64,000 nucleotides of DNA from Neopararhizobium haloflavum. Lineage in GTDB: Bacteria > Pseudomonadota > Alphaproteobacteria > Rhizobiales > Rhizobiaceae. Position numbers and translations under genes: made by a program. Numbering within the stretch: the stretch's first letter is position 1; each line of letters opens with the position of its first letter. Below are positions 7,065-64,000 of this stretch, piece after piece. The stretch is taken from the NCBI RefSeq assembly GCF_002750855.1, contig NZ_NWUC01000004.1:301948-365947 (forward strand). Direction: 5' to 3'. The notes under the pieces were generated by a model. That model did no database searches and was not told the DNA's origin. It worked only from the letters and a program-made list of their open reading frames with translations.

Positions 7065-8420
7065 ATGGCCGCACAGGAATCACCAAAGCCACCGGCACGC
7101 TTCGACCAGAAGAGCGGACCGACAAAGGCTGCCCGGCCGCCGCGCAGCGCCAAGGGCACCGTCCTTGCCGGCGCAGTCATCGTCGGGGTCACCTTTTTCG
7201 GCTTTGGAGCATGGGCATCCTACGCGCCGCTCGCCAGCGCCGTCACGGCCTCGGCGTCGGTGGTCTCGGAAGGCCGCACACAGGTCGTTCAGCACCTCGA
7301 AGGCGGGATCGTGGCCGAGGTCAATGTCCGCGAAGGCCAGATGGTCGAACGCGGCGAAGTTCTCTTCAGGCTCGACCCCGTTCAGGCAGCTTCCCGCGCG
7401 GATCGTTTCCGCAATCAGCTGCATGCACGCCAGGTTCAGGCCGCTCGCCTCAGGGCCGAACGCGACGATCGGGCGGAGATCGATTTTCCCGAGCACATCC
7501 TTGAAAGGGAAAGCAGCGACATTCAGGCGATGATCGAGGGTGAACAACGCCTCTTTCTGGAACGGCGTCAGTCCTTCGAAGGGCAGATCGAACTGCTTGA
7601 GGCAAAAATCATCCAGTTCAATCTCGAGGTGAACGGGCTCAATGTTCAGGAAGGCTCCAAGCGCGAGCAGATCCGGCTGATCACCGAGGAACTCGACAGC
7701 CTCCGTCCGCTTCTGGAAAAGGGCCTCGTGGCGCGTTCCCGCCTGCTTGCTCTGGAGCGTGAAGCGGCCCGTCTCGAAGGCGAAGTCGGCGATATCGAAT
7801 CACGGCGCGCGCGGGCGAACGAGTCCGCCACCGAGGCGCGGCTGGAGATGGAACAGCTCAAGCAGCAGTTCCGTGAGGAGGTCGTCGCAGAATTGCGCGA
7901 GGTCGAAACACAGATCGCCGACCTTGAAGAACAGCTGACGGCGGCCGAGGACGTGATGAGCCGTCTCAACATTCACGCGCCGACGACCGGAGTCGCGCAG
8001 AATGTGGCGGTGACGACGCTCGGCGCGGTCATCTCCCCCGGCGAGCCGCTCCTTGAAATCTCGCCGGAACAGGCCGAATTGGTGGTGGCCGCAAGGGTCA
8101 CGCCGCTCGACGTTCACGACGTCAAGCTCGGCCAGCGCGCCGAGGTTCGTTTCGTCGCGCTCGATGTGCGCAAGTTGCCGTCGATCTTCGGCGAGATTCG
8201 CTCGGTATCGGGCGACCGTATCGTCGACCAGTCCAACAATACGGAATATTTCCTGGTTCAGGTCTCCGTTCCACCGGAAGAAATGAAGAAGCTCGGCGAC
8301 CAGACCGTTCACCCGGGCATGCCGGCCGACATCATCGTACCAACCGGCTCGCGAACCTTCATGGATTACCTGTTGCGCCCGCTTTCAGACGCGATCACCC
8401 GCGGCCTGAACGAGGAATGA
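7065..8420 (+). CDS. HlyD/PrtE-family membrane-fusion protein of type I secretion
   Basis: A periplasmic adaptor of 451 residues linking the inner-membrane ABC transporter to an outer-membrane channel. A short cytoplasmic tail precedes one membrane segment (about residues 26-48). A biotinyl-lipoyl half motif (VVQHLEGGIVAEV) comes next, then a long charged coiled coil (about 110-290), the second lipoyl half and a beta-barrel C-terminus. GGAGAGG sits six bases before ATG 7065. It is cotranscribed with the ATPase gene, and an intrinsic terminator follows at 8428. The family call is firm. Confidence 0.93.
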   Translation: MAAQESPKPPARFDQKSGPTKAARPPRSAKGTVLAGAVIVGVTFFGFGAWASYAPLASAVTASASVVSEGRTQVVQHLEGGIVAEVNVREGQMVERGEVLFRLDPVQAASRADRFRNQLHARQVQAARLRAERDDRAEIDFPEHILERESSDIQAMIEGEQRLFLERRQSFEGQIELLEAKIIQFNLEVNGLNVQEGSKREQIRLITEELDSLRPLLEKGLVARSRLLALEREAARLEGEVGDIESRRARANESATEARLEMEQLKQQFREEVVAELREVETQIADLEEQLTAAEDVMSRLNIHAPTTGVAQNVAVTTLGAVISPGEPLLEISPEQAELVVAARVTPLDVHDVKLGQRAEVRFVALDVRKLPSIFGEIRSVSGDRIVDQSNNTEYFLVQVSVPPEEMKKLGDQTVHPGMPADIIVPTGSRTFMDYLLRPLSDAITRGLNEE

Positions 8421-49077: not shown

Positions 49078-49950
49078 TTACGCCGCCAGTCTGCGCTCAG
49101 GGTTAGCCCTATCCGGGGCGAGCCCCGGATAGGGCGGCACCTGGATTTGCCTATAAGCCTCGTCGGGGGTCGCCCCGGCAAGGGCCGAGTGAGGTCGGTT
49201 GGTGTTGTAGTAGTTGATCCACCAGGTCAGACCGGCCCGCAACTCCGATCCGGTCTCGAAGGCGTGGATGTAGACGCACTCATATTTGAGGCTACGCCAC
49301 AGCCGCTCGATGAAGACGTTGTCCATCCAACGGCCACGGCCATCCATTGAGACCCGCACGCCAGCGTCCTTCAGCACGTCGACGAAGCGGGGGCTGGTGA
49401 ACTGACTGCCCTGGTCGGTGTTGAAGATTTCCGGAGGCCCATAGCGGGCCAGGGCTTCTTCCAGGGCGGCGATGCAAAACTCGGCATCCATACTGTTGGA
49501 CAGCCGCCAGGACAGCACTTTGCGCGTCGCCCAGTCCATCACCGCCACCAGATACATGAAGCCCCGGCGCATCGGGATGTAGGTGATATCAGCGCACCAG
49601 ACCTGGTTCGGCCGGTCGATCGTCAGCTCGCGCAGCAGGTATTTGTAAGTCCTGTGCTCCGGGTGAGGGATGGTGGTGCGCGGCTTCTGATAGATCGGCG
49701 TCAGGCCCATCTTGGCCATCAGCCGGCGCACCCGCTTCCGGCCGACCCCATAGCCCAGGCGACAAAGGTGGCGAACCATCTGGCGAGAGCCGTACCAGGG
49801 CATCTCCAGGAAGGCCTCGTCGATCAGCCGCATTAACGTCAGGTTCAGCGGGCTTTCTCCCGTCGGCCGGTAATAGAAGCCCGATCGGTTAATCGACACC
49901 AGAGCGCATTGGCGCAGGATCGAAATCTTCGGGTGATCGGGCTCGATCAT
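49078..49950 (-). CDS. IS3-family transposase OrfB (DDE integrase)
   Basis: Catalytic half of the transposase. The rve domain shows VWCADITYIP, FNTDQGSQFTSP and FIERLWRSLKYE, giving the DDE triad. ATG 49950 would start it alone, but the frame is open upstream and joins orfA by a -1 slip at TTTTTTA (49992-49998), after which the peptide continues FFSQSLRSLSVDRR. The fused OrfAB is the active enzyme in this family. Confidence 0.92.
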   Translation of the reverse strand: MIEPDHPKISILRQCALVSINRSGFYYRPTGESPLNLTLMRLIDEAFLEMPWYGSRQMVRHLCRLGYGVGRKRVRRLMAKMGLTPIYQKPRTTIPHPEHRTYKYLLRELTIDRPNQVWCADITYIPMRRGFMYLVAVMDWATRKVLSWRLSNSMDAEFCIAALEEALARYGPPEIFNTDQGSQFTSPRFVDVLKDAGVRVSMDGRGRWMDNVFIERLWRSLKYECVYIHAFETGSELRAGLTWWINYYNTNRPHSALAGATPDEAYRQIQVPPYPGLAPDRANPERRLAA

Positions 49951-49970
49951 CGCTCGCCTCCGGTCCACGC

Positions 49971-50255
49971 TCAGCGACCGAAGGCTTTGGCTAAAAAATC
50001 CCGTTCCACCACCAACTGGCCGATCTTGGCGTGCAGCTTGTCGATTTCGCCCTCGCGTACGCTTTCGGTCGCCTCGACCTTGCCCGAGAACACCCCCGAA
50101 AGCCCCTCGACGGCCTGCTTGCGCCAAGCCGCGATCATCGTCTGGTGCACGCCGTGCTTCGTCGCCAGTTGCGACAGGGTCAGTTCCCCCTTCAGCGCCT
50201 CCAGCGTAACCTTGGCCTTGAAATCAGCCGAATACCGCTTCCGTTTGCCAGTCAT
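49971..50255 (-). CDS. IS3-family transposase OrfA (helix-turn-helix)
   Basis: A 94-residue DNA-binding protein: RYSADFKAKVTLEALKGELTLSQLATKHGVHQTMIAAWRKQAVEGLSGVFSG, followed by a leucine-zipper-like helix (EIDKLHAKIGQLVVERDFLAKAF). It binds the terminal repeats. Its end overlaps the orfB frame, and the slip site lies eight codons before its stop. Confidence 0.92.
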   Translation of the reverse strand: MTGKRKRYSADFKAKVTLEALKGELTLSQLATKHGVHQTMIAAWRKQAVEGLSGVFSGKVEATESVREGEIDKLHAKIGQLVVERDFLAKAFGR

Positions 50256-50729: not shown

Positions 50730-51482
50730 CTAGCTCCGCTCGGCAAGTAGGTCTTTGAGGTTATTCAGAATGGCTGCGGACATGTCTCTTACTGAAATCC
50801 CATGCAGACGCGCCAATCCCTCGACAGCGACCCAAACATCGCTTGGTGTGGAAGGATTACCGCTAGTTTGTGTGAACGGTCCGTCCGTCTCTGTCAAAAT
50901 GCGATCGAGAGGCAAAGATTTGGTTATTGCCGCCCGCTTTTCATTTACGAGCATCTCGGCGTTCACTGAAAAATAGCAGCCGAGATCTACCGCCCGCTTT
51001 GCCTCTTTCGCGGTACCGGTGAACCAATGAAGCACAACGCGTCCACGCTGGGGCGGCATGTATTGCTCGACCATATCGAGCACGGCTTTCGTCGCTCTGA
51101 CGCTATGCGTCGTGACGATCTTGTTCCCCGCCGCCGCACAGAGCGTCAGCACACGAGCGAAAATCTCTTTTTGCGTCTCAAACGACCTGTAGAACCGCGG
51201 GCCGGCGTCCAGTCCGACCTCGCCAACATAGCGTGTTAGCGGAAGCAATTCCTCCCACAGCCCGATCTCGCGGGCGCGCTCGCCGACCAGTTGAGGATGC
51301 AGGCCGAGAGCCGCGCGAACGTGACGGGTGGCGGACGCCAGTTCATGGTTCCGCGGCCAAGCTCTAGGCGTGGTGGTCACGGCGAGGGTGAAAACGCCAT
51401 CGCTCTCGCAACGCTCCACCGCGGCCACGTGGTCCGGGTAGAGATCGAGGTGGCAATGAAAATCAACGAGACTTGATCGCAT
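50730..51482 (-). CDS. qatD: QatD, TatD-family metal-dependent nuclease of the Qat defence system
   Basis: A 250-residue TatD-like hydrolase. The metal ligands are visible: His9 and His11 (FHCHLD), Glu88 (GEVG), His126 (TTHS), His152 (LHWFTG) and Asp200 (TETDGPF). On its own it would look like a DNA-repair nuclease, but it starts eight bases after a QueC-like gene in the order fixed for Qat. In that anti-phage system QatD is required for protection; its target is not established. Confidence 0.88.
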   Translation of the reverse strand: MRSSLVDFHCHLDLYPDHVAAVERCESDGVFTLAVTTTPRAWPRNHELASATRHVRAALGLHPQLVGERAREIGLWEELLPLTRYVGEVGLDAGPRFYRSFETQKEIFARVLTLCAAAGNKIVTTHSVRATKAVLDMVEQYMPPQRGRVVLHWFTGTAKEAKRAVDLGCYFSVNAEMLVNEKRAAITKSLPLDRILTETDGPFTQTSGNPSTPSDVWVAVEGLARLHGISVRDMSAAILNNLKDLLAERS

Positions 51483-51490
51483 GATGCCTC

Positions 51491-52840
51491 TTACGACGGT
51501 GCGGTGCGAACGCCAGTCAGCAAGCGCCCAACCTCTTCCAATCCGCGGCGGTAGACATCAGCCAAGTCATCGTGACGGGAAGGATCATCATAGAGCGGCC
51601 CTGGCTTGTGGATGAGGGCCTTGGCGAGTTCCGGACGCTTCGATAGCCGCGCGATCGCGATCTGAAAGGATCGGACCTGCTGACCTTCGGCCTGTCGGGT
51701 GTCTAATGTGGCAGTCTTCAGGTCTGGCACGCCGTAAATTGTCGAATCCTTGCCCTGTAGAGAGGCCCGTCGAATGAGACACGGTAGGCAGTATCCGCAG
51801 TGTCCCTGTGGCTTCTTGGTCCAGCGCCCCTTCGTCGGCGATGAACATGATAGCGACAGCGGGGCGAGCTGCTTCAACAGGGCCGGATTGGTGCATTGGG
51901 TGACCATCTCCCCCTTGGTCTTGTCCCAATAGGGATTTTCGACCTTCCCTCCGACACCGAGCGCCCGCAGCAGATCGTTCCACCGGGCCATGTAGAAGGG
52001 ATGCGTCGTGCGGGTGCTGAGCGCGCCGAGCCGAAGTCTATCGAGCGGCACGTTGAGCGCGATCAACCCGTTTTCCGGAACCTTGAGCACGAAGTCGCGG
52101 CCGAGCGCAGTCCCGGCGGCCAAGCCCAGCGAGAAGAACAGGAACGAGCGGCCGCGTGTGGTGTCCTCCGATCCGACGTCCTCGACAAACCCGCTATCGA
52201 AGCTCATCCATACCCGCAGCCGATCGAAAGAAGAGGCTTTATAAGCGGCTTTCAAACCGTGGAAGCACTGCTCCTGCGACTTGCTCACCAGTCCTTCGCC
52301 GGCATGGCTGACCAGAAGCGGCGTCTCGCCGGCATTCAAGCTGTCGATCGCACCGATCAAACTGTCCAAACCACCGGAGAACAAGCTCACGCCATCGAAC
52401 GGGGCGGGAATGAGGGTGGGCGCGGCAGGAGAAACCAGCTTCGCGTAGCCCTTGGCCCGTTTGCGGAAGCCCACATCCCATCTGTCGCCTGTCAGGAAGT
52501 TCAAGGCGCGGACCAAGATCGGCGCGGCGGCCGTCCATCGCACTGGATCGCTCACGGGGACGACTAATCGAATCTCGCGCGTCCAGGCATCCTGCGATTC
52601 CGTCGAGCGGGAGATGCGGGTGTCCGCTGCGTGAACGTGGGCCGCGACCACGAGCATGTCCGCGCCGATCTCGCTCGGGGTCAGGTGCAGCGCCTTGAGG
52701 TCAGCCAAGGCGTGGCCGATCCCATGATCGAGACGCTTGCCCGCTACCAACTGTAAGATCGATGCGACTTCGTCGCGCGCCTTTGGAACACGGGTCTTAT
52801 CGTCCTCGCCGAAACGGCCAATGATGACATGGCGCCTCAT
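51491..52840 (-). CDS. qatC: QatC, QueC-like (7-cyano-7-deazaguanine synthase-like) protein of the Qat defence system
   Basis: A 449-residue protein with the ATP pyrophosphatase loop SGGLDS at 155-160 and a zinc site at Cys332, Cys348, Cys351 and Cys354 (HCGYCLPC), as in QueC. It is about twice the size of housekeeping QueC, having an extra N-terminal domain of 150 residues. No other queuosine or 7-deazapurine genes are near. In Qat it is thought to modify a protein or nucleotide rather than make preQ0. The start overlaps the qatB stop by four bases. Confidence 0.9.
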   Translation of the reverse strand: MRRHVIIGRFGEDDKTRVPKARDEVASILQLVAGKRLDHGIGHALADLKALHLTPSEIGADMLVVAAHVHAADTRISRSTESQDAWTREIRLVVPVSDPVRWTAAAPILVRALNFLTGDRWDVGFRKRAKGYAKLVSPAAPTLIPAPFDGVSLFSGGLDSLIGAIDSLNAGETPLLVSHAGEGLVSKSQEQCFHGLKAAYKASSFDRLRVWMSFDSGFVEDVGSEDTTRGRSFLFFSLGLAAGTALGRDFVLKVPENGLIALNVPLDRLRLGALSTRTTHPFYMARWNDLLRALGVGGKVENPYWDKTKGEMVTQCTNPALLKQLAPLSLSCSSPTKGRWTKKPQGHCGYCLPCLIRRASLQGKDSTIYGVPDLKTATLDTRQAEGQQVRSFQIAIARLSKRPELAKALIHKPGPLYDDPSRHDDLADVYRRGLEEVGRLLTGVRTAPS

Positions 52841-53715
52841 TTCGCTGCCTCCCCATCGCCCATCGTCTGCAACACGTCGAAGGCGGATTGATAGACGTTA
52901 GTTACAAAGCCCATCACTGCATCTGGGGTCAGCGACTGAATGTTGACACCCGCGGCGTTGATCGCGTCGCTGACACCCCGCTGGATGAAATCACGCAATT
53001 GCGCCTGAACCCTCTCGGCCGCGCGCGGATCGGCAGGCAAGGTTACGACCTTGGTGCCGATGTCGTTACAGATGCGCGCCTCGATCGCGTGAGTCGCATA
53101 TAGTTCGAAGACGGTCTGGATTTGCCCAGGTGTCAGCGCGTCGATGTCGGTAATGCCAGCACCGGCGAGATCGGCGATCGTCTCGACGAAGGCGTCTCGC
53201 GCGATTCCCTCATCAATAGACCCACCTTCGGGGCAGATATAATCGGCGAGACCCGCGAACACTTCCTCGATCGGACGCCCGGCGAGGCTTTCAAGGTTGA
53301 GCGTTCGTAGCGCCTCACGCACGCCATTCGCGCTGGCGTCGTTGAGGAACCTGACCAGTCCAGCACCCGCGCCCCGCGACGAACCCATCCGCTGCGCAGC
53401 CTGGCGTGAGCCGCCCGCTGATTTGGACACATATTGCGAAACCGCGCGGCCGAGGCTCCTACGGTCGCTTCCGCCCGAACTTGCGAAACGCGTGAAATTG
53501 TTTCGGGCGGAAGTGAAGCGATCCGACGCCCCTGCCGGCGCGGTCGGCCGAGGTGCTGGCGCGGGAGGAACTGCGGGCGGCGCTCCATCAGGAGCCGGGG
53601 ATTGCGTTCCGTCGCTATCACCCGCGCCAGCTCCGCCGTCGCTGTCACCTTGCAACCAACTCGGAATGAGCGGCGTACCGCCTCCTGCACCCCCATAGGC
53701 GTTCGACGTGCCCAT
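52837..53715 (-). CDS. qatB: QatB, small adaptor-like protein of the Qat defence system
   Basis: A 292-residue protein. ATG 53715 shares one base with the qatA stop (TGATG). Residues 1-20 read GTSNAYGGAGGGTPLIPSWL, the conserved QatB opening, followed by a Pro/Ala/Gly-rich disordered stretch to about 75. The rest is helical (SRQAAQRMGSSRGAGAGLVRFLNDASANGVREAL, TPGQIQTVFELYATHAIEARICNDIGTK). Identification rests on this N-terminal motif and on the gene order. Function within Qat is unclear. Confidence 0.85.
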   Translation of the reverse strand: MGTSNAYGGAGGGTPLIPSWLQGDSDGGAGAGDSDGTQSPAPDGAPPAVPPAPAPRPTAPAGASDRFTSARNNFTRFASSGGSDRRSLGRAVSQYVSKSAGGSRQAAQRMGSSRGAGAGLVRFLNDASANGVREALRTLNLESLAGRPIEEVFAGLADYICPEGGSIDEGIARDAFVETIADLAGAGITDIDALTPGQIQTVFELYATHAIEARICNDIGTKVVTLPADPRAAERVQAQLRDFIQRGVSDAINAAGVNIQSLTPDAVMGFVTNVYQSAFDVLQTMGDGEAAK

Positions 53716-55673
53716 CAGCGACCACCCTTCCGCGTGCGAAGCGCGGCGCTCGCCGTGGGCTTCAGGAAGGACGAACCGGAGGTGGACCATCCTAAGAGTA
53801 GATTCTCGAAGCGCGCCACGGCGTCGGAATCCTTGACGACACCCTCCCAACCCGACGCGGGCCAAGGCCCGCACCGATCGGCGGGCAAGGCTTCGAGCAG
53901 GTCAAGAAGATTGGCTTGAAGCGTCGGATGCGCGCGAACTAGCACCGCGAGTCCGTCGATGCCGGGTGGCACGGTATCAAAGGTGTCTCCGCCCATAACG
54001 CGCCCGCGCAGTTCCTCGAAGACCTGCGCCGCCTCCGCAGGAACGAGTTGCTTGAGTTCGCCTTCGAACGCTTGGACCGCGAGTTTTGGGCCGAGCAGTT
54101 TTTCGACCACAGCGGCGAGACGCCCGAGGACGGAGGCCGCGCCAAAATAGTCTTTCCGATCCTTGGTGACGAACAGATAGGGGCGCAGATCGACCTCAGC
54201 CAAGGCCGGCGATAGCCGCGCCCAGGCCCGTATCGCGTCGGCCGCCTTCCATTCCGTCAGAACGGCACTGTCTTTGGAATCCGGCACGACGGTCGGCTTG
54301 GTGTCATCGATGACACTGATTTTCGGCCCGGCCCGCTTGGCCTTTGGAACTGGCTTCTTCTCCAACGCGGCGGCTTCAAGCGCCGCCAAGTCTGCGCAAC
54401 GGCCGTCTGGATCACGGGCGGCGGCGCTGGCGATCTGATCGAATAGTCTGGAGAGGAACCGTTCGGCCAGCATTAGTTTCGCCAGGACGGGCAGCTTCAC
54501 CTCTTCTCCGAAGCCGCGAGCGAGCGCGGTCTGATGGCGCAGCAGCAAGGTGTTCAAGAAGCGCTTGATCTGCCGCGGATTGCCCTGAGTACCGCTGGCC
54601 AGGATCGGACCGATCTGGTCGCTCAAGGTGAGCGCGTTCTGTACCTGGCCGGCTTTGTCGCCCAAGGCGGTCTTCACCGTCTGCGCGTCGAGCCCGGCCG
54701 TCTTCCAAGGCCGTTTGAGCAATTCACGCGCGACTGTGATGAGCGACGAGTAAGCGGGATCGTCGTCACCCAGCTCGGCGCCGATGAGCAACAGGGTGAC
54801 GTAGATACGGGTTTCTGTTTCGCCCAAAGCCGGAATCCGGAATGGAATCTGGATCAGCTTTTCGAGATAGTTGCGCGCATAGTCACGGGGGCCAGTCGTG
54901 TCCGGCAACTCGGGGAAATGCTTGCGCACCGAATACTCGATCATCGCCTCGTCGGCCGCGACGATGAATGCGGTGCGAGCGGTGAAGACGAACAGTCGGA
55001 CGGCTTCGAGCGTTTCGATCGCCGTGTCTGGCAGGCAGCGGTCAAGATCGTCGATGAGTACGATCAGTTGCTTGATGCCTGCCTGCTTGAGCAAATCGTC
55101 AAAAGCCTTCCTGAAGGCTTCGATCTCCTCCGGGACGTTCTTCGACTCTCCGGGCTTCAGCAGACCCTGCACACCATCGATCGCTTTGTCGTAATTCTCC
55201 TGCGTGGCGAGTTTCGAGGGATCGGAGAAGATTCCCTTCAAGGTGCCCACCACTGCGCCGATCTGATCGGCTGTGGGGATGCCGGTGAACGCGGTGAACG
55301 CGAGACCGCCCCCGCGCCGCGCGATCTTCAGCCAGTCGATCCGCCGAAAGATGTCTTTCACGGCCACGCCGGCCTGGGTGAGTAAGGGCCGCTTTTCAAC
55401 GAGCCCGGTAACGATGCCCTCGATCAGCGCGATCTTGGCGTCTTCGAACCCCTGGAAACGCCACCCGTTGAATTTGATGCAGAGCACGTCCTCATCCGAA
55501 CTGAGGCCATTCTCGATCATCTCAAGGATGCTGGATTTGCCTGCGCCCCAGTCGCCATGAACACCGATTGTCACAGCGCGGTCAGGCTTTTCACGCAGCA
55601 GTTCGATGATAGTTTTGGCGATCGCCTCATTGTTGAGGAGATCCACCTTTGTCTCATTATCCGTTAGAATCAT
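53715..55673 (-). CDS. qatA: QatA, KAP-family P-loop ATPase of the Qat defence system
   Basis: A 652-residue STAND-like NTPase. Walker A GDWGAGKSS at 40-48, Walker B LIDDLDRC at 206-213, then KAP sensor features (FIVAADEAMIEYSVRKHFPE). Residues about 105-150 contain a weak hydrophobic stretch (GGGLAFTAFTGIP) seen inserted in many KAP ATPases. The C-terminal part is helical with a Lys-rich linker near 440. Likely the sensor or motor subunit. It starts 27 bases after the herA stop, in the same direction. Confidence 0.9.
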   Translation of the reverse strand: MILTDNETKVDLLNNEAIAKTIIELLREKPDRAVTIGVHGDWGAGKSSILEMIENGLSSDEDVLCIKFNGWRFQGFEDAKIALIEGIVTGLVEKRPLLTQAGVAVKDIFRRIDWLKIARRGGGLAFTAFTGIPTADQIGAVVGTLKGIFSDPSKLATQENYDKAIDGVQGLLKPGESKNVPEEIEAFRKAFDDLLKQAGIKQLIVLIDDLDRCLPDTAIETLEAVRLFVFTARTAFIVAADEAMIEYSVRKHFPELPDTTGPRDYARNYLEKLIQIPFRIPALGETETRIYVTLLLIGAELGDDDPAYSSLITVARELLKRPWKTAGLDAQTVKTALGDKAGQVQNALTLSDQIGPILASGTQGNPRQIKRFLNTLLLRHQTALARGFGEEVKLPVLAKLMLAERFLSRLFDQIASAAARDPDGRCADLAALEAAALEKKPVPKAKRAGPKISVIDDTKPTVVPDSKDSAVLTEWKAADAIRAWARLSPALAEVDLRPYLFVTKDRKDYFGAASVLGRLAAVVEKLLGPKLAVQAFEGELKQLVPAEAAQVFEELRGRVMGGDTFDTVPPGIDGLAVLVRAHPTLQANLLDLLEALPADRCGPWPASGWEGVVKDSDAVARFENLLLGWSTSGSSFLKPTASAALRTRKGGR

Positions 55674-55700
55674 TTCCCCCCCAATGCGCCTTTGCGGGCT

Positions 55701-57452
55701 TTATCCGCCGTTACGCGATTGCCCCCGCAAACATTCGACCGCAGAAGTTATTGCGGCATCATCCGGCTTGGCCGATCCCCATTCCTTCCAGAAATCTCGC
55801 GTCGCGCTATCCGGCGGCACTTTTGGCATGTCGAGCTTGATCCGCGTCGGTAGCAGAACAGCGTCACCCAACAACAGCGCCTCACCCGTATCAAGCAATG
55901 GCAAGATGCTCGTCAGCCCAGCCAGCGAATCCGGCATCAGGCGCTTGATGACGCCCTGATCGGTTTCGTTCGTCAGGCGCAAAGCCAAGAAATTATTGCA
56001 CTGGCTCAGGATCGTCCGGCTGACATCCGACGGGCGCTGGCTCACCACGAGCAACGAGAAGCCGTATTTACGGCCTTCCTTGGCGATCCGCTCGAATGAT
56101 CCGAGGGCCTGACGCTGGACCGCGTCAGCGTCATCGCGAACCGGAAGGTAAAGATGAGCCTCGTCGCAGAGCAGCGTAACCGGCGTCCGGGTCTTCCCGC
56201 TCATCCAGAACTGAACATCATAAAGTAGCCTCGCCAGCGTTCCCGTCACCACGGGGAGTACGTCGGCGGGCACTTCGGAGAAGTCGATAACCTTGATGCC
56301 TGTGTCATCGCCAGATTGCAGCAGTTTGAGCACCTGCGTTGCAAGCCAGTCGTATTTCATCGCAGCAGGTGGCGGTGCGAACATGAAGCCGTAGCGACGA
56401 TCGTCCAGCTTTGCTTCGAGGCGCGACAGGAACCGGGTCAGCTTGTCCTCCCATTCCCCCTTCACCGGGCCGTTCTTACCCACCCCTTTTGTGGTGTTGT
56501 CTGTGTTCAGAAGCCCGACCAACTGTTTGACGTCGTAAGGAATCGGCGAATCGACAGTGTACGTTTTCTTGATATCGGCCTTCTTCTCAGCATCGAGTGT
56601 CTGCCCTTTTAAGGAGCGGACATGCAGCGTGAACCGCGACGCCTGATTTGGCGCGTTCTGGTCGCTGCGATCGAGGATCATCGACAGCATTTCATCACGG
56701 TTGAGCAACCAATATGGCAGGAACAGCGTGTCGTTTCCCGGATTTTCCAGATCGCCGGGACCAGCGACGCGGAAGCGCGTAGCGAATCCTCCGTTCGCCT
56801 TATCTGCCAACGGAGCGTATTCGCCGTGCATATCGAACACGATGATGTTTGGAAACTTCAGCTTGGCGGCCCGTTCGAGGATCAGTGCAACAGCCCAGCT
56901 TTTGCCGGACCCGGTGCTTCCGAGGATCGCTGCGTGCCGCTGAAAGAACTTGTCCCCACTGGCGATCGCATCGGCCGTGCGATCCGCAACGAACGTGCCG
57001 AGCTTGAGTCTTTCATCGGCGGAAAAACCGGCACCCAGGATTCCCATGAAGCGCTGAAGATTTCCGCCTTCAATGACGAAGCAGTCCCGGTCGATCTGCG
57101 GAAAGCTATCCGCACCGCGCTTGAATGTATTCCGCCGATCTCCCTCCACCGTTCTGAACGTACCGATCAACACGCCCTGGATCAGGTCGGTCGGCACCGC
57201 TGCCAAAAGCCCGCCATCGGCATCCTCATCGTCCGGGCCGGGCAATTCTTCCCTGATGCTGCGGGTAACGCGCTCTGTCATGGCGATGAGGTATTCGCGC
57301 TCCGTCGCGCCGCGAATGGCGATGAGCTGTCCGATGCCGATCCGCGTGAGCAGAACGGAGTTCGTCACATCGATCGCAACACGGCTGGTATCGACCGACG
57401 CGACGCGCCCGATTTTATCCTCGTCAGCAAATTGGAGAGCGGCTTCAGTCAT
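55701..57452 (-). CDS. herA: HerA-like ATPase of a SIR2-HerA defence pair
   Basis: A 583-residue hexameric translocase-type ATPase. The N-terminal HAS-barrel covers about 10-130 (GRVASVDTSRVAIDVTNSVLLTRIGIGQLIAIRG). Walker A GSTGSGKS is at 178-185, IIVFDMHGEY at 203-211 and the Walker B DEAH at 430-433. There is no NurA partner; instead a SIR2 gene overlaps its start by four bases. In the SIR2-HerA system the two proteins form a large complex with NADase and DNA-linked activity that stops phage growth. Confidence 0.92.
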   Translation of the reverse strand: MTEAALQFADEDKIGRVASVDTSRVAIDVTNSVLLTRIGIGQLIAIRGATEREYLIAMTERVTRSIREELPGPDDEDADGGLLAAVPTDLIQGVLIGTFRTVEGDRRNTFKRGADSFPQIDRDCFVIEGGNLQRFMGILGAGFSADERLKLGTFVADRTADAIASGDKFFQRHAAILGSTGSGKSWAVALILERAAKLKFPNIIVFDMHGEYAPLADKANGGFATRFRVAGPGDLENPGNDTLFLPYWLLNRDEMLSMILDRSDQNAPNQASRFTLHVRSLKGQTLDAEKKADIKKTYTVDSPIPYDVKQLVGLLNTDNTTKGVGKNGPVKGEWEDKLTRFLSRLEAKLDDRRYGFMFAPPPAAMKYDWLATQVLKLLQSGDDTGIKVIDFSEVPADVLPVVTGTLARLLYDVQFWMSGKTRTPVTLLCDEAHLYLPVRDDADAVQRQALGSFERIAKEGRKYGFSLLVVSQRPSDVSRTILSQCNNFLALRLTNETDQGVIKRLMPDSLAGLTSILPLLDTGEALLLGDAVLLPTRIKLDMPKVPPDSATRDFWKEWGSAKPDDAAITSAVECLRGQSRNGG

Positions 57453-58516
57453 GGTTCAAGCACCTCGGCAACGAATGAGCCCAGATCCCACAGGTCCAGA
57501 CCAGGAAAGAAGGTCTCGACGCCAGCGACAAAGACGCCAGAGCCGGAAACACCAGCTTGTTCGGCGCGCTGAATCGCGATGACATTGCGGCACTCGTTTA
57601 CGAGCTTCACCGCATTATCCGACAGTCCGTAAGTTAAAAGCAGCGTGGGCACGCCGCTGCGGATACGGGGCGTCAGGTGAGTTTCAAGGTGATCGTCGTT
57701 GAAACCATAGCCGATCACGAGAAAGCGGCTGGCACGGTCGATCGCCGAATTTGCCCGTTCCCGATGGCGGTCAAACGGGCTTTCGTAGCCGTTGCGGAAC
57801 TTGTTCAACCCCGGCGTGATGATGAGCCTCGGTAGATCGAGATCACCAGAGTAGCGGACGGGCTTCCCGTCACGGTGATACCAGTCGAGACTGCCATGAG
57901 GTTTGAAGATATTGGCGCGCGGACGATAACGAAACTGTGCTCGTCCGGCCTTCAGCGTCACTTCCCGGCAGAAGCTCAGGCGGCTTTCCTGCTCGTTCAA
58001 CTCTCCTGCAAAATGGCCGATAAACAACGTATCAACGCCGAGACCGGCTTCTTCCACGGCGACCTCAACCAGGCGATCATAGTTGGTAGTAACCACCGGA
58101 AGTCCGGTATGAGGTTTCAACAAGTGCTTGACGAGCCCGGTAAAACGCAGCGTCCGGGTCCGCGAGAAAACTTCGGCAACAATTTGACGCTCACGTATAG
58201 CGATCAGTTCGGCCGTGCGCGCAACGATCGCGATTTCCAGTCCTGTCGTCGGGGGCACTTCCAGAAGAGCCGCTTCGAGTCCCTTGGTTGGCAGGAGCGG
58301 TGAAATCGCTTTCCACCGATCTACCTCCGCTGCCGCCAAGCCTGCTGTCACTGTCGCATCGAGATGAGTGCCCAACTCGCCCATACCCGGCAGCCCTTCC
58401 GCGCATGACAGACCAGAGCCGACAACCGTTACTAGGCCGTCTGTCAGATGCTGTTGCAACAGTAGTTTAAGCTCGTGAATGTCCAAGCGCGTCTTCTCGT
58501 CTTTATATTTTGACAT
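57449..58516 (-). CDS. SIR2-family NAD-hydrolase effector of a SIR2-HerA defence pair
   Basis: A 355-residue SIR2-like protein. The NAD-binding loop is VVGSGLS at 31-37, the catalytic-type Asn145 lies in TTNYD, His207 in KPHGS, and GYGFNDDH at 269-276 closes the fold. Zinc-binding cysteines of deacetylase sirtuins are absent, as in defence SIR2 proteins that cleave NAD+. It is the first gene of the six-gene operon. A palindrome lies 36 bases upstream. Confidence 0.92.
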   Translation of the reverse strand: MSKYKDEKTRLDIHELKLLLQQHLTDGLVTVVGSGLSCAEGLPGMGELGTHLDATVTAGLAAAEVDRWKAISPLLPTKGLEAALLEVPPTTGLEIAIVARTAELIAIRERQIVAEVFSRTRTLRFTGLVKHLLKPHTGLPVVTTNYDRLVEVAVEEAGLGVDTLFIGHFAGELNEQESRLSFCREVTLKAGRAQFRYRPRANIFKPHGSLDWYHRDGKPVRYSGDLDLPRLIITPGLNKFRNGYESPFDRHRERANSAIDRASRFLVIGYGFNDDHLETHLTPRIRSGVPTLLLTYGLSDNAVKLVNECRNVIAIQRAEQAGVSGSGVFVAGVETFFPGLDLWDLGSFVAEVLEP

Positions 58517-58551
58517 CTATTTGGCCAGTATGGCAGATGATCAATTCCTAA

Positions 58552-58570
58552 GCGATACCAACTATATCGC
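58552..58570. promoter_or_regulatory. Perfect inverted repeat upstream of the defence operon
   Basis: GCGATA, seven bases, TATCGC, 36 bases before the sir2 start and between that start and the repeat module at 58591. It is a candidate operator. No regulator gene is adjacent to the operon. Confidence 0.5.
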
Positions 58571-58590
58571 AACAGAATAACAAAAGCGGC

Positions 58591-58893
58591 GATCAGGATG
58601 CTCGGTCCTCGGGTTTTGGGGCTTTGCACATCCTGATCTAGCTTTGTACCCGTCCTCCGCTTCGCTCTTGCCGGGCGGGTGGCTTGGGGGCGCTGCCCCC
58701 TGGCGCGGCACAAGGGCAGCAGGGCGGTATCCCCAGCCTTCCGCGCGGATATGTGCTCCGCACTCTCGTCACGACTTCGATCCGCTTGTGCAGGCCGGGT
58801 GATCCCCCTCCGCCCGTCCGCCCTTGCGCCTTGCACCCCCCGGTCTCGGCGACGGCCAGGGTTGCAGCGCAGCGCTGCGCTCCAACCCAGACC
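58591..58893 (+). repeat. Repeat module copy 1 (hairpin plus 243-bp near-identical segment)
   Basis: Bases 58651-58893 match 63758-64000 with about five differences. Before that, a 60-base part has diverged more but keeps an inverted repeat (GATCAGGATG at 58591 with CATCCTGATC at 58629). Further short hairpins occur inside (GGGGGC/GCCCCC near 58686, and the palindrome GCGCAGCGCTGCGC at 58867). The module ends 15 bases before the parB-like start codon. I see no gene in it. Confidence 0.85.
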
Positions 58894-63666: not shown

Positions 63667-63697
63667 CTCATCTCCGCCGCCTTTCAGGAAACCAGGA

Positions 63698-64000
63698 GAT
63701 CAGGATACGCGGCTTTCCGGTTTTCAGGCTTTGCGTATCCCGATCGGATCTTCTCCCCGTCCTCCGCTTTGCTCTGGCCGGGCGGGTTGCTTGGGGGCGC
63801 TGCCCCCTGGCGCGGCACAAGGGCGGCCGGGCGGTATCCCCAGCCTTCCGCGCGGATATGTGCTCCGCACTCTCGTCACGACTTCGATCCGCTTGTGCAG
63901 GCCGGGTGATCCCCCTCCGCCCGTCCGCCCTTGCGCCTTGCACCCCCCGGTCTCGGCGACGGCCAGGGTTGCAGCGCAGCGCTGCGCTCCAACCCAGACC
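63698..64000 (+). repeat. Repeat module copy 2, runs off the window end
   Basis: Bases 63758-64000 match 58651-58893. The preceding hairpin GATCAGGATACGC (63698) with GCGTATCCCGATC (63733) sits at the same offset as in copy 1 but with different bases. By analogy with copy 1, a start codon should follow about 15 bases beyond the window. Confidence 0.85.

Follow-up and report, generated by a model that had tools for sequence, protein, structure and literature searches.

A probable composite defence operon in Neopararhizobium haloflavum that joins a complete SIR2-HerA pair to a complete QatABCD set

The stretch of DNA analysed here (the window, 64,000 nucleotides, nt) comes from Neopararhizobium haloflavum (contig NZ_NWUC01000004.1, positions 301,948 to 365,947) and carries on its minus strand, at 58516-50730 (open reading frame, ORF, coordinates), the genes of two antiphage systems, SIR2-HerA and QatABCD, in the order sir2, herA, qatA, qatB, qatC, qatD. 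The first gene, sir2 (57449..58516), encodes the SIR2_2-type protein of SIR2-HerA, with 355 amino acids (aa), and overlaps by 4 nt herA (55701..57452), which encodes the HerA-type ATPase (583 aa). After a junction of 27 nt (55674..55700), qatA (53715..55673) codes for a KAP-family P-loop NTPase of 652 aa and overlaps by 1 nt qatB (52837..53715), whose product of 292 aa starts with MGTS and is the putative substrate of QatC. The qatC gene (51491..52840, QueC-like enzyme, 449 aa) overlaps qatB by 4 nt and is separated by 8 nt from qatD (50730..51482), which encodes a TatD-family nuclease of 250 aa. The start of qatB was placed at the ATG at 53715, since the profile match begins at the methionine of MGTS; the mechanical ORF begins further up, at 53874. 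On the same strand, the likely leader of the six-gene unit, with a putative promoter role, lies at 58517..58587, between sir2 and a 300-nt repeat, and includes an inverted repeat GCGATA-N7-TATCGC that was found by eye. The gene order, overlaps and gaps described in the original prediction, which was made from the DNA letters and their ORFs, were confirmed from the coordinates.

This locus is read as a composite defence operon in which a complete SIR2-HerA and a complete QatABCD, each self-sufficient, would be expressed probably from one promoter before sir2 and would most likely work separately, with a probability of about 0.74. The best PADLOC matches of all six proteins span nearly the full length of their profiles: PDLC04082 for SIR2 (498 bits), PDLC04105 for HerA (771 bits), PDLC02209 for QatA (1045 bits), PDLC02213 for QatB (477 bits), PDLC02214 for QatC (702 bits) and PDLC02215 for QatD (414 bits). 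With six full-length profile matches, chance is not an issue. Matches over the Pfam cut-offs were obtained for SIR2_2 (PF13289), DUF87/HerA, KAP_NTPase (PF07693) and TatD_DNase (PF01026), and QatB and QatC had no Pfam match. The catalytic residues, predicted to be intact, were indeed found so, by alignment to solved chains and, for QatA, by eye. SIR2 retains TTNYD and the histidine of PHGS (aligned to 8yhx and 8j4u), HerA retains GSTGSGKS (Walker A) and DEAH (9c1m), QatC retains SGGLDS and TRTTHPF, with the SGG-DS loop and the Thr pair present (solved QatC of 9vlk and 9zee), and QatB retains MGTS and the Pro-x-Trp motif PSW (9zee_A). QatD keeps the HCH, E, H, H and D positions of the TatD type (3gg7), which we take to be metal ligands, and the GDWGAGKSS and LIVLIDDLDRC sequences of QatA are presumably its Walker motifs. 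QatC residues were matched to those of PMC13279940 by motif, not by number, and in section 9 of that paper the MGTS motif of QatB is described as essential. All 75 QatB relatives alignable from residue 1 begin with MGTS (69) or VGTS (6). The biochemical activities of the six proteins are taken from their families and would be the corresponding ones.

SIR2-HerA and QatABCD were reportedly described by Gao et al. 2020. As in the solved relatives of SIR2-HerA (e.g. 8j4u, 8uaf), the SIR2_2 gene of the window is directly followed by the HerA ATPase gene, with a 4-nt overlap and the motifs intact. As in the QatABCD system known from the QatBC structures (PMC13279940), the four qat genes are found in order, with the QatB MGTS and the QatC catalytic motifs; unlike several stand-alone close relatives, which have a leader before qatA, the window has the end of herA at that place. 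PMC11263360 describes Sir2-HerA as a large complex with a dodecameric Sir2 that acts on NAD, and PMC13279940 presents QatB-QatC as the minimal unit of Qat, whose range is affected by QatA and QatD. No description of a sir2-herA-qat join or of Qat docking was found in open-access titles, abstract openings and passages of PMC10952713, PMC13279940, PMC10121019 and PMC11263360.

The association of both halves was analysed in a scan of one genome per species, from which the best 80 of 142 Qat relatives were taken as loci (76 with a readable qatA start and 4 without; upstream DNA of at least 1 kb in 71 and of at least 2.9 kb in 67). No window-type sir2 was found by tblastn in the 80 loci, and an intact window-type SIR2-HerA precedes qatA in 0 of the 67 with at least 2.9 kb upstream. 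Conserved six-gene linkage, as the mark of a single system, was not observed, because the SIR2-HerA of the window is intact in none of the 80. Only locus L016 (Rhodopseudomonas faecalis) has a window-type HerA, of which residues 418-583 (90%, tblastn) remain 30 nt before qatA, and locus L019, from an Afipia metagenome-assembled genome (MAG), retains in that position a stretch of about 29 nt from the end of herA. Both loci still have qatA-D with herA decayed and no sir2, so the two halves were not kept or lost together. An assembly chimera was considered and rejected, as the herA-qatA boundary recurs in L016 and L142 and as the trace of about 29 nt in L019 and L141. L019 and L141 do not differ in the 60 nt that precede qatA; L142 and L141 were not counted as independent because they are perhaps of the same species as L016 and L019.

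QatA was found in 8 genomes of a sample of 385 of the window's class (its own genome included) and in 34 of 391 of the family of genome G035. From these two samples another 37 Qat loci were read, with flanks of about 1.5 kb, a set that does not include the QatA matches of G788, G878 and G1128; among the 36 with a visible qatA start, only L142, with the L016 arrangement again, has a window-type HerA in front. In a phylum sample of 219 genomes, QatA was found in 7, among them the genome of the window and two already in the set; the new loci of this sample (L177-L180) were not included in further analysis. The plasmid matches listed were 40 of 84, 60 of 72 and 20 of 33, and a lack of shared records among them is not taken as a result. 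Some Sinorhizobium fredii plasmids (H18-H20, H129, H130) match only the first 143 residues of QatA (79%), and some of these matches are annotated as 'restriction endonuclease'.

Fifteen related SIR2-HerA loci were also compared, from 8 genomes of the window's order (HerA identity about 36-45%), 6 viral contigs (75-80%) and 1 plasmid (66%), 13 of them being distinct because L126/L127 and L125/L128 are near copies. In contrast to the window, where herA ends 27 nt before qatA, none of the 15 has a match to qatB, qatC or qatD, with sequence past herA visible in 14 of them (L127 holds only part of herA). Their sole qatA-like match, in L119, covers 93 residues at 26% and lies about 7.6 kb from herA. 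The genome of the window has a second SIR2_2-type protein (446 aa frame, G000:C34:97028-97390, loci L002 and L122), with no HerA match within 15 kb around it.

According to the original prediction, the two halves might work as one layered system. In such a system of six proteins, a single infection signal would be acted on by HerA together with QatA, or by SIR2 together with QatB, QatC or QatD, and the partners would need each other, which is in line with the tight spacing and with at least two origins of the pairing, from different SIR2-HerA lineages (see below). HerA-type ATPases bind DNA. So does the QatA of a studied system, according to PMC13279940, which also reports defence against some phages by QatBC on its own, a result that argues against mutual need. 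The proposal is not supported by the genomic comparison either: the halves are normally apart, the qat genes remain where herA is truncated, and Qat is found just as tightly behind many unrelated modules. SIR2 and HerA are not obvious QatC substrates, because neither begins with the Met-Gly of QatB. Nothing in this analysis shows any contact between the halves. The layered system is considered very unlikely, and we infer that both halves are functionally independent.

The same six-gene order was found elsewhere among the 80 loci only in L067 (Rhodoferax MAG) and L068 (Janthinobacterium MAG), with 40 nt between herA and qatA. These two loci differ from the window in carrying another SIR2-HerA lineage, with a HerA that is 30% identical and has a KTSC tail and a SIR2 whose best profile is PDLC04094 instead of PDLC04082, and in a QatA from a distant clade. 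Within 5 kb of the L067-type SIR2-HerA of a Mesorhizobium plasmid, no qat gene is annotated or matched, and in the viral contigs no relative of the L067-type HerA was found, nor any relative of QatC among 7 patterns matched. The QatA tree consists of 76 rows, the window and 75 of the 76 loci with a qatA start (L014 was dropped by the length filter, and L132-L169 are outside the tree). On this tree, well supported branches force no fewer than 2 changes of the label 'SIR2-HerA joined', and the joining of SIR2-HerA with Qat thus arose at least twice, the second time separately and outside close relatives. Recurrence of the six-gene order beyond close relatives was therefore verified with another SIR2-HerA in L067/L068, and not with the window-type pair, intact in none of the 67 loci. 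For the window, L016 and L019, the common herA end suggests one joining event, which is not established by the QatA tree. In L014, the qatA frame (at 7162) stops after 168 residues though the whole gene matches, as in a broken copy or a sequencing error.

The edges of Qat were determined by DNA comparison. In 27 of 29 close Qat relatives, similarity to the window starts between -18 and +15 nt of the first base of qatA, the exceptions being L016 (-503) and L019 (-55). Among 243 qatA pairs with at least 85% identity, the upstream context is common to 33 and differs in the other 210, whose breakpoints relative to the qatA start codon fall within -20..+5 (141 pairs), within -119..-21 (57), further up (3) or further in (9); neither these pairs nor those compared at qatD are independent events. 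Recent swaps have sharp limits: L045 and L067 are 95% identical from the qatA start codon onward and unmatched before it, and L042 shows the same exact swap with L038/L040 at about 98% identity. This precision is not unique to the qatA side, because on the qatD side 54 of the 78 pairs with a non-shared 3' context likewise break no more than 20 nt from the qatD stop. Judging from these breakpoints, Qat behaves as a cassette that is gene-exact at either end, and SIR2-HerA would have been stacked in front of Qat by recombination at the 5' edge of qatA. A sliding identity analysis hinted that the first 40 nt of qatA go with L016/L019 and the body with sphingomonad alleles, over a few sites that were not used as proof.

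A leader of about 70-95 nt recurs before stand-alone qatA and is a possible promoter or operator. In L005, L009, L012, L014, L017 and L049, the leader (about 100 nt before qatA) has stretches of the ACATATRGCGA, TTCSGGCAGT and TTGCGYG types, followed in most of them by GCTGCGAGTCGCGGG. The last 70 nt before qatA of 12 sequences not tightly joined were scored with L009 as reference and 100 shuffles, and eight scored above all shuffles (L003, L005, L012, L013, L014, L017, L049 and L130), of which L003 and L013, near copies, gave the lowest scores. The scores before qatA in the window, L016, L019 and L027 were not above the shuffles, and a leader-derived pattern was not matched anywhere in the window, even when 3 mismatches were allowed. 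The original prediction had pointed to a promoter or terminator between herA and qatA as the sign of separate transcripts; a scan of 11 kb found no promoter-like or terminator-like match in the 27-nt gap, which is weak evidence because no sigma-70-like site was found anywhere in the region. A shared transcript of the six genes is likely because of the 27-nt gap, the absence of any site at the junction and the absence of the leader of stand-alone relatives. The simplest reading would be that in this locus Qat has lost the leader of its own and is transcribed from the sir2 promoter, which would probably drive all six genes and whose likely position is before sir2. The shared regulation suggested at the outset is therefore plausible from spacing, junction, leader and the second joining, all of them sequence arguments.

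Tight joining to an upstream gene is not restricted to SIR2-HerA. A same-strand ORF of at least 150 aa within 60 nt of qatA, in loci with at least 1000 nt of flank, was found in 16 of 54 distinct contexts (71 loci), and downstream of qatD in 2 of 50 (66 loci; Fisher p 0.0005). In addition to the HerA fragment of L016 and the SIR2-HerA of L067/L068, the upstream genes encode a poly-gamma-glutamate hydrolase preceded by Gabija GajA-GajB (L043, hydrolase by clustering), by RmrA (L041, by profile) or by an Mrr-type protein (L055 group, by profile; L078, hydrolase by profile and Mrr-type protein by clustering), an Mrr-type protein alone (L073), a reverse transcriptase (L061/L071), the Hachiman-like HamB (L081), a HamB-like helicase (L057), mad8 (L082), a Septu-like PtuA-like ATPase (L042), an AbiJ N-terminal domain (L079) and RES (L037). 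L027 has a large protein with an AAA match below the cut-off and no defence profile, and L006 an HlyD-type protein, which is not a defence gene. The hydrolase family protein (PF05908) overlaps or abuts qatA behind defence genes in L041, L043, L055 and L078, and also in L187. Other composite Qat operons resemble that of the window in having qatABCD directly behind a defence or toxin module, with a 4-nt overlap, and differ in that the partner is not SIR2-HerA. In a Delftia lacustris plasmid, the genes for an AbiEii-type toxin, a restriction endonuclease and a poly-gamma-glutamate hydrolase are followed by qatABCD, an ATP-dependent endonuclease and a UvrD helicase, and in a Celeribacter plasmid an Xre-type antitoxin gene is found with a RES gene that overlaps qatA by 4 nt (neither qatC nor qatD is listed for this plasmid). 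Qat could be a general downstream accessory cassette that moves gene-exact, drops its leader, docks behind a defence or toxin module and borrows its promoter, adding a second layer that is co-expressed and perhaps co-triggered, with SIR2-HerA as partner at least twice. This generalization is considered unlikely to hold as a whole; the broader pattern of Qat docking in composite defence operons nevertheless merits attention.

Several observations weigh against the composite operon with separately working halves. In all 11 kb, 0 sigma-70-like sites were found when 2.3 were expected from shuffles. The leader is not universal in stand-alone Qat, since L008, L015 and L131 did not score above the shuffles, and part of it may serve prlF because it also precedes a divergent prlF in L005, L009 and L017 (no prlF match was found in L012, L014, L049 and L130). 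The QatA tree places the window beside L009-L011 (87/89, not well supported) and L016 and L019 as sisters (99/88). As to docking in general, a tight upstream gene of at least 150 aa was found in only 2 of the 36 class and G035-family loci with a visible qatA start (L135, 58 nt; L142, 30 nt). As a control, 1 of 5 Gabija loci in the ORF table had a tight upstream ORF of at least 150 aa (L182, 24 nt), too few to compare; because of this small control and the 2 of 36, it is not claimed that Qat docks more than other systems. The 2 of 36 speak for plain island clustering, in which the two systems would be same-strand neighbours with a promoter each and the qat promoter would be located within the 3' end of herA. 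Host promoters may escape the scan, and it is common for defence systems to occur in shared islands (in an E. coli survey, 58.9% were co-localised; PMC10121019). Plain clustering is nevertheless regarded as distinctly unlikely, considering the 27-nt herA-qatA gap, the absence of the leader of several stand-alone relatives and, in the main set, the excess of tight joining upstream over downstream. The second SIR2-HerA/Qat joining could also mean selection for this very pair, the halves being mechanistically separate and favoured together by complementary phage ranges or by a fail-safe order in which NAD depletion backs up Qat. At least 2 independent joinings speak for such selection; however, 2 events among about 17 tight contexts are few, and L016 and L019 lost sir2 and most of herA, so that a selected pairing is considered rather unlikely.

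The 300-nt direct repeat occurs at 58588-58887 and again at 63695-63994 (92%), and between its two copies, beside sir2, lie a ParB-HTH gene and a PrlF-YhaV toxin-antitoxin pair. Stand-alone qat operons of sphingomonads (loci L005, L007, L009-L011 and L017) are flanked by relatives of these ParB, PrlF and YhaV genes, so that a similar element carries Qat whether SIR2-HerA is present or not. These shared neighbours point to one family of mobile element. Contig C20 of this genome has a 71-nt piece of the repeat at its edge. Just past qatD there is a transposase pair (49078-50255) with integrase core and HTH_Tnp_1 domains, presumably of the IS3 type.

In the composite operon preferred here, SIR2 and HerA would form a complex that, once phage has been sensed, destroys NAD, and the join to Qat would give shared expression and co-transfer, not a shared mechanism. 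Defence islands are usually described as neighbours, and a join at the start codon with the leader replaced would mean that immune systems are stacked into one regulated unit. It would also mean that, in the naming of new systems, genes should not be taken for components of a single system just because they share an operon. The many partner modules of Qat offer a natural series for asking whether stacking is additive or synergistic.

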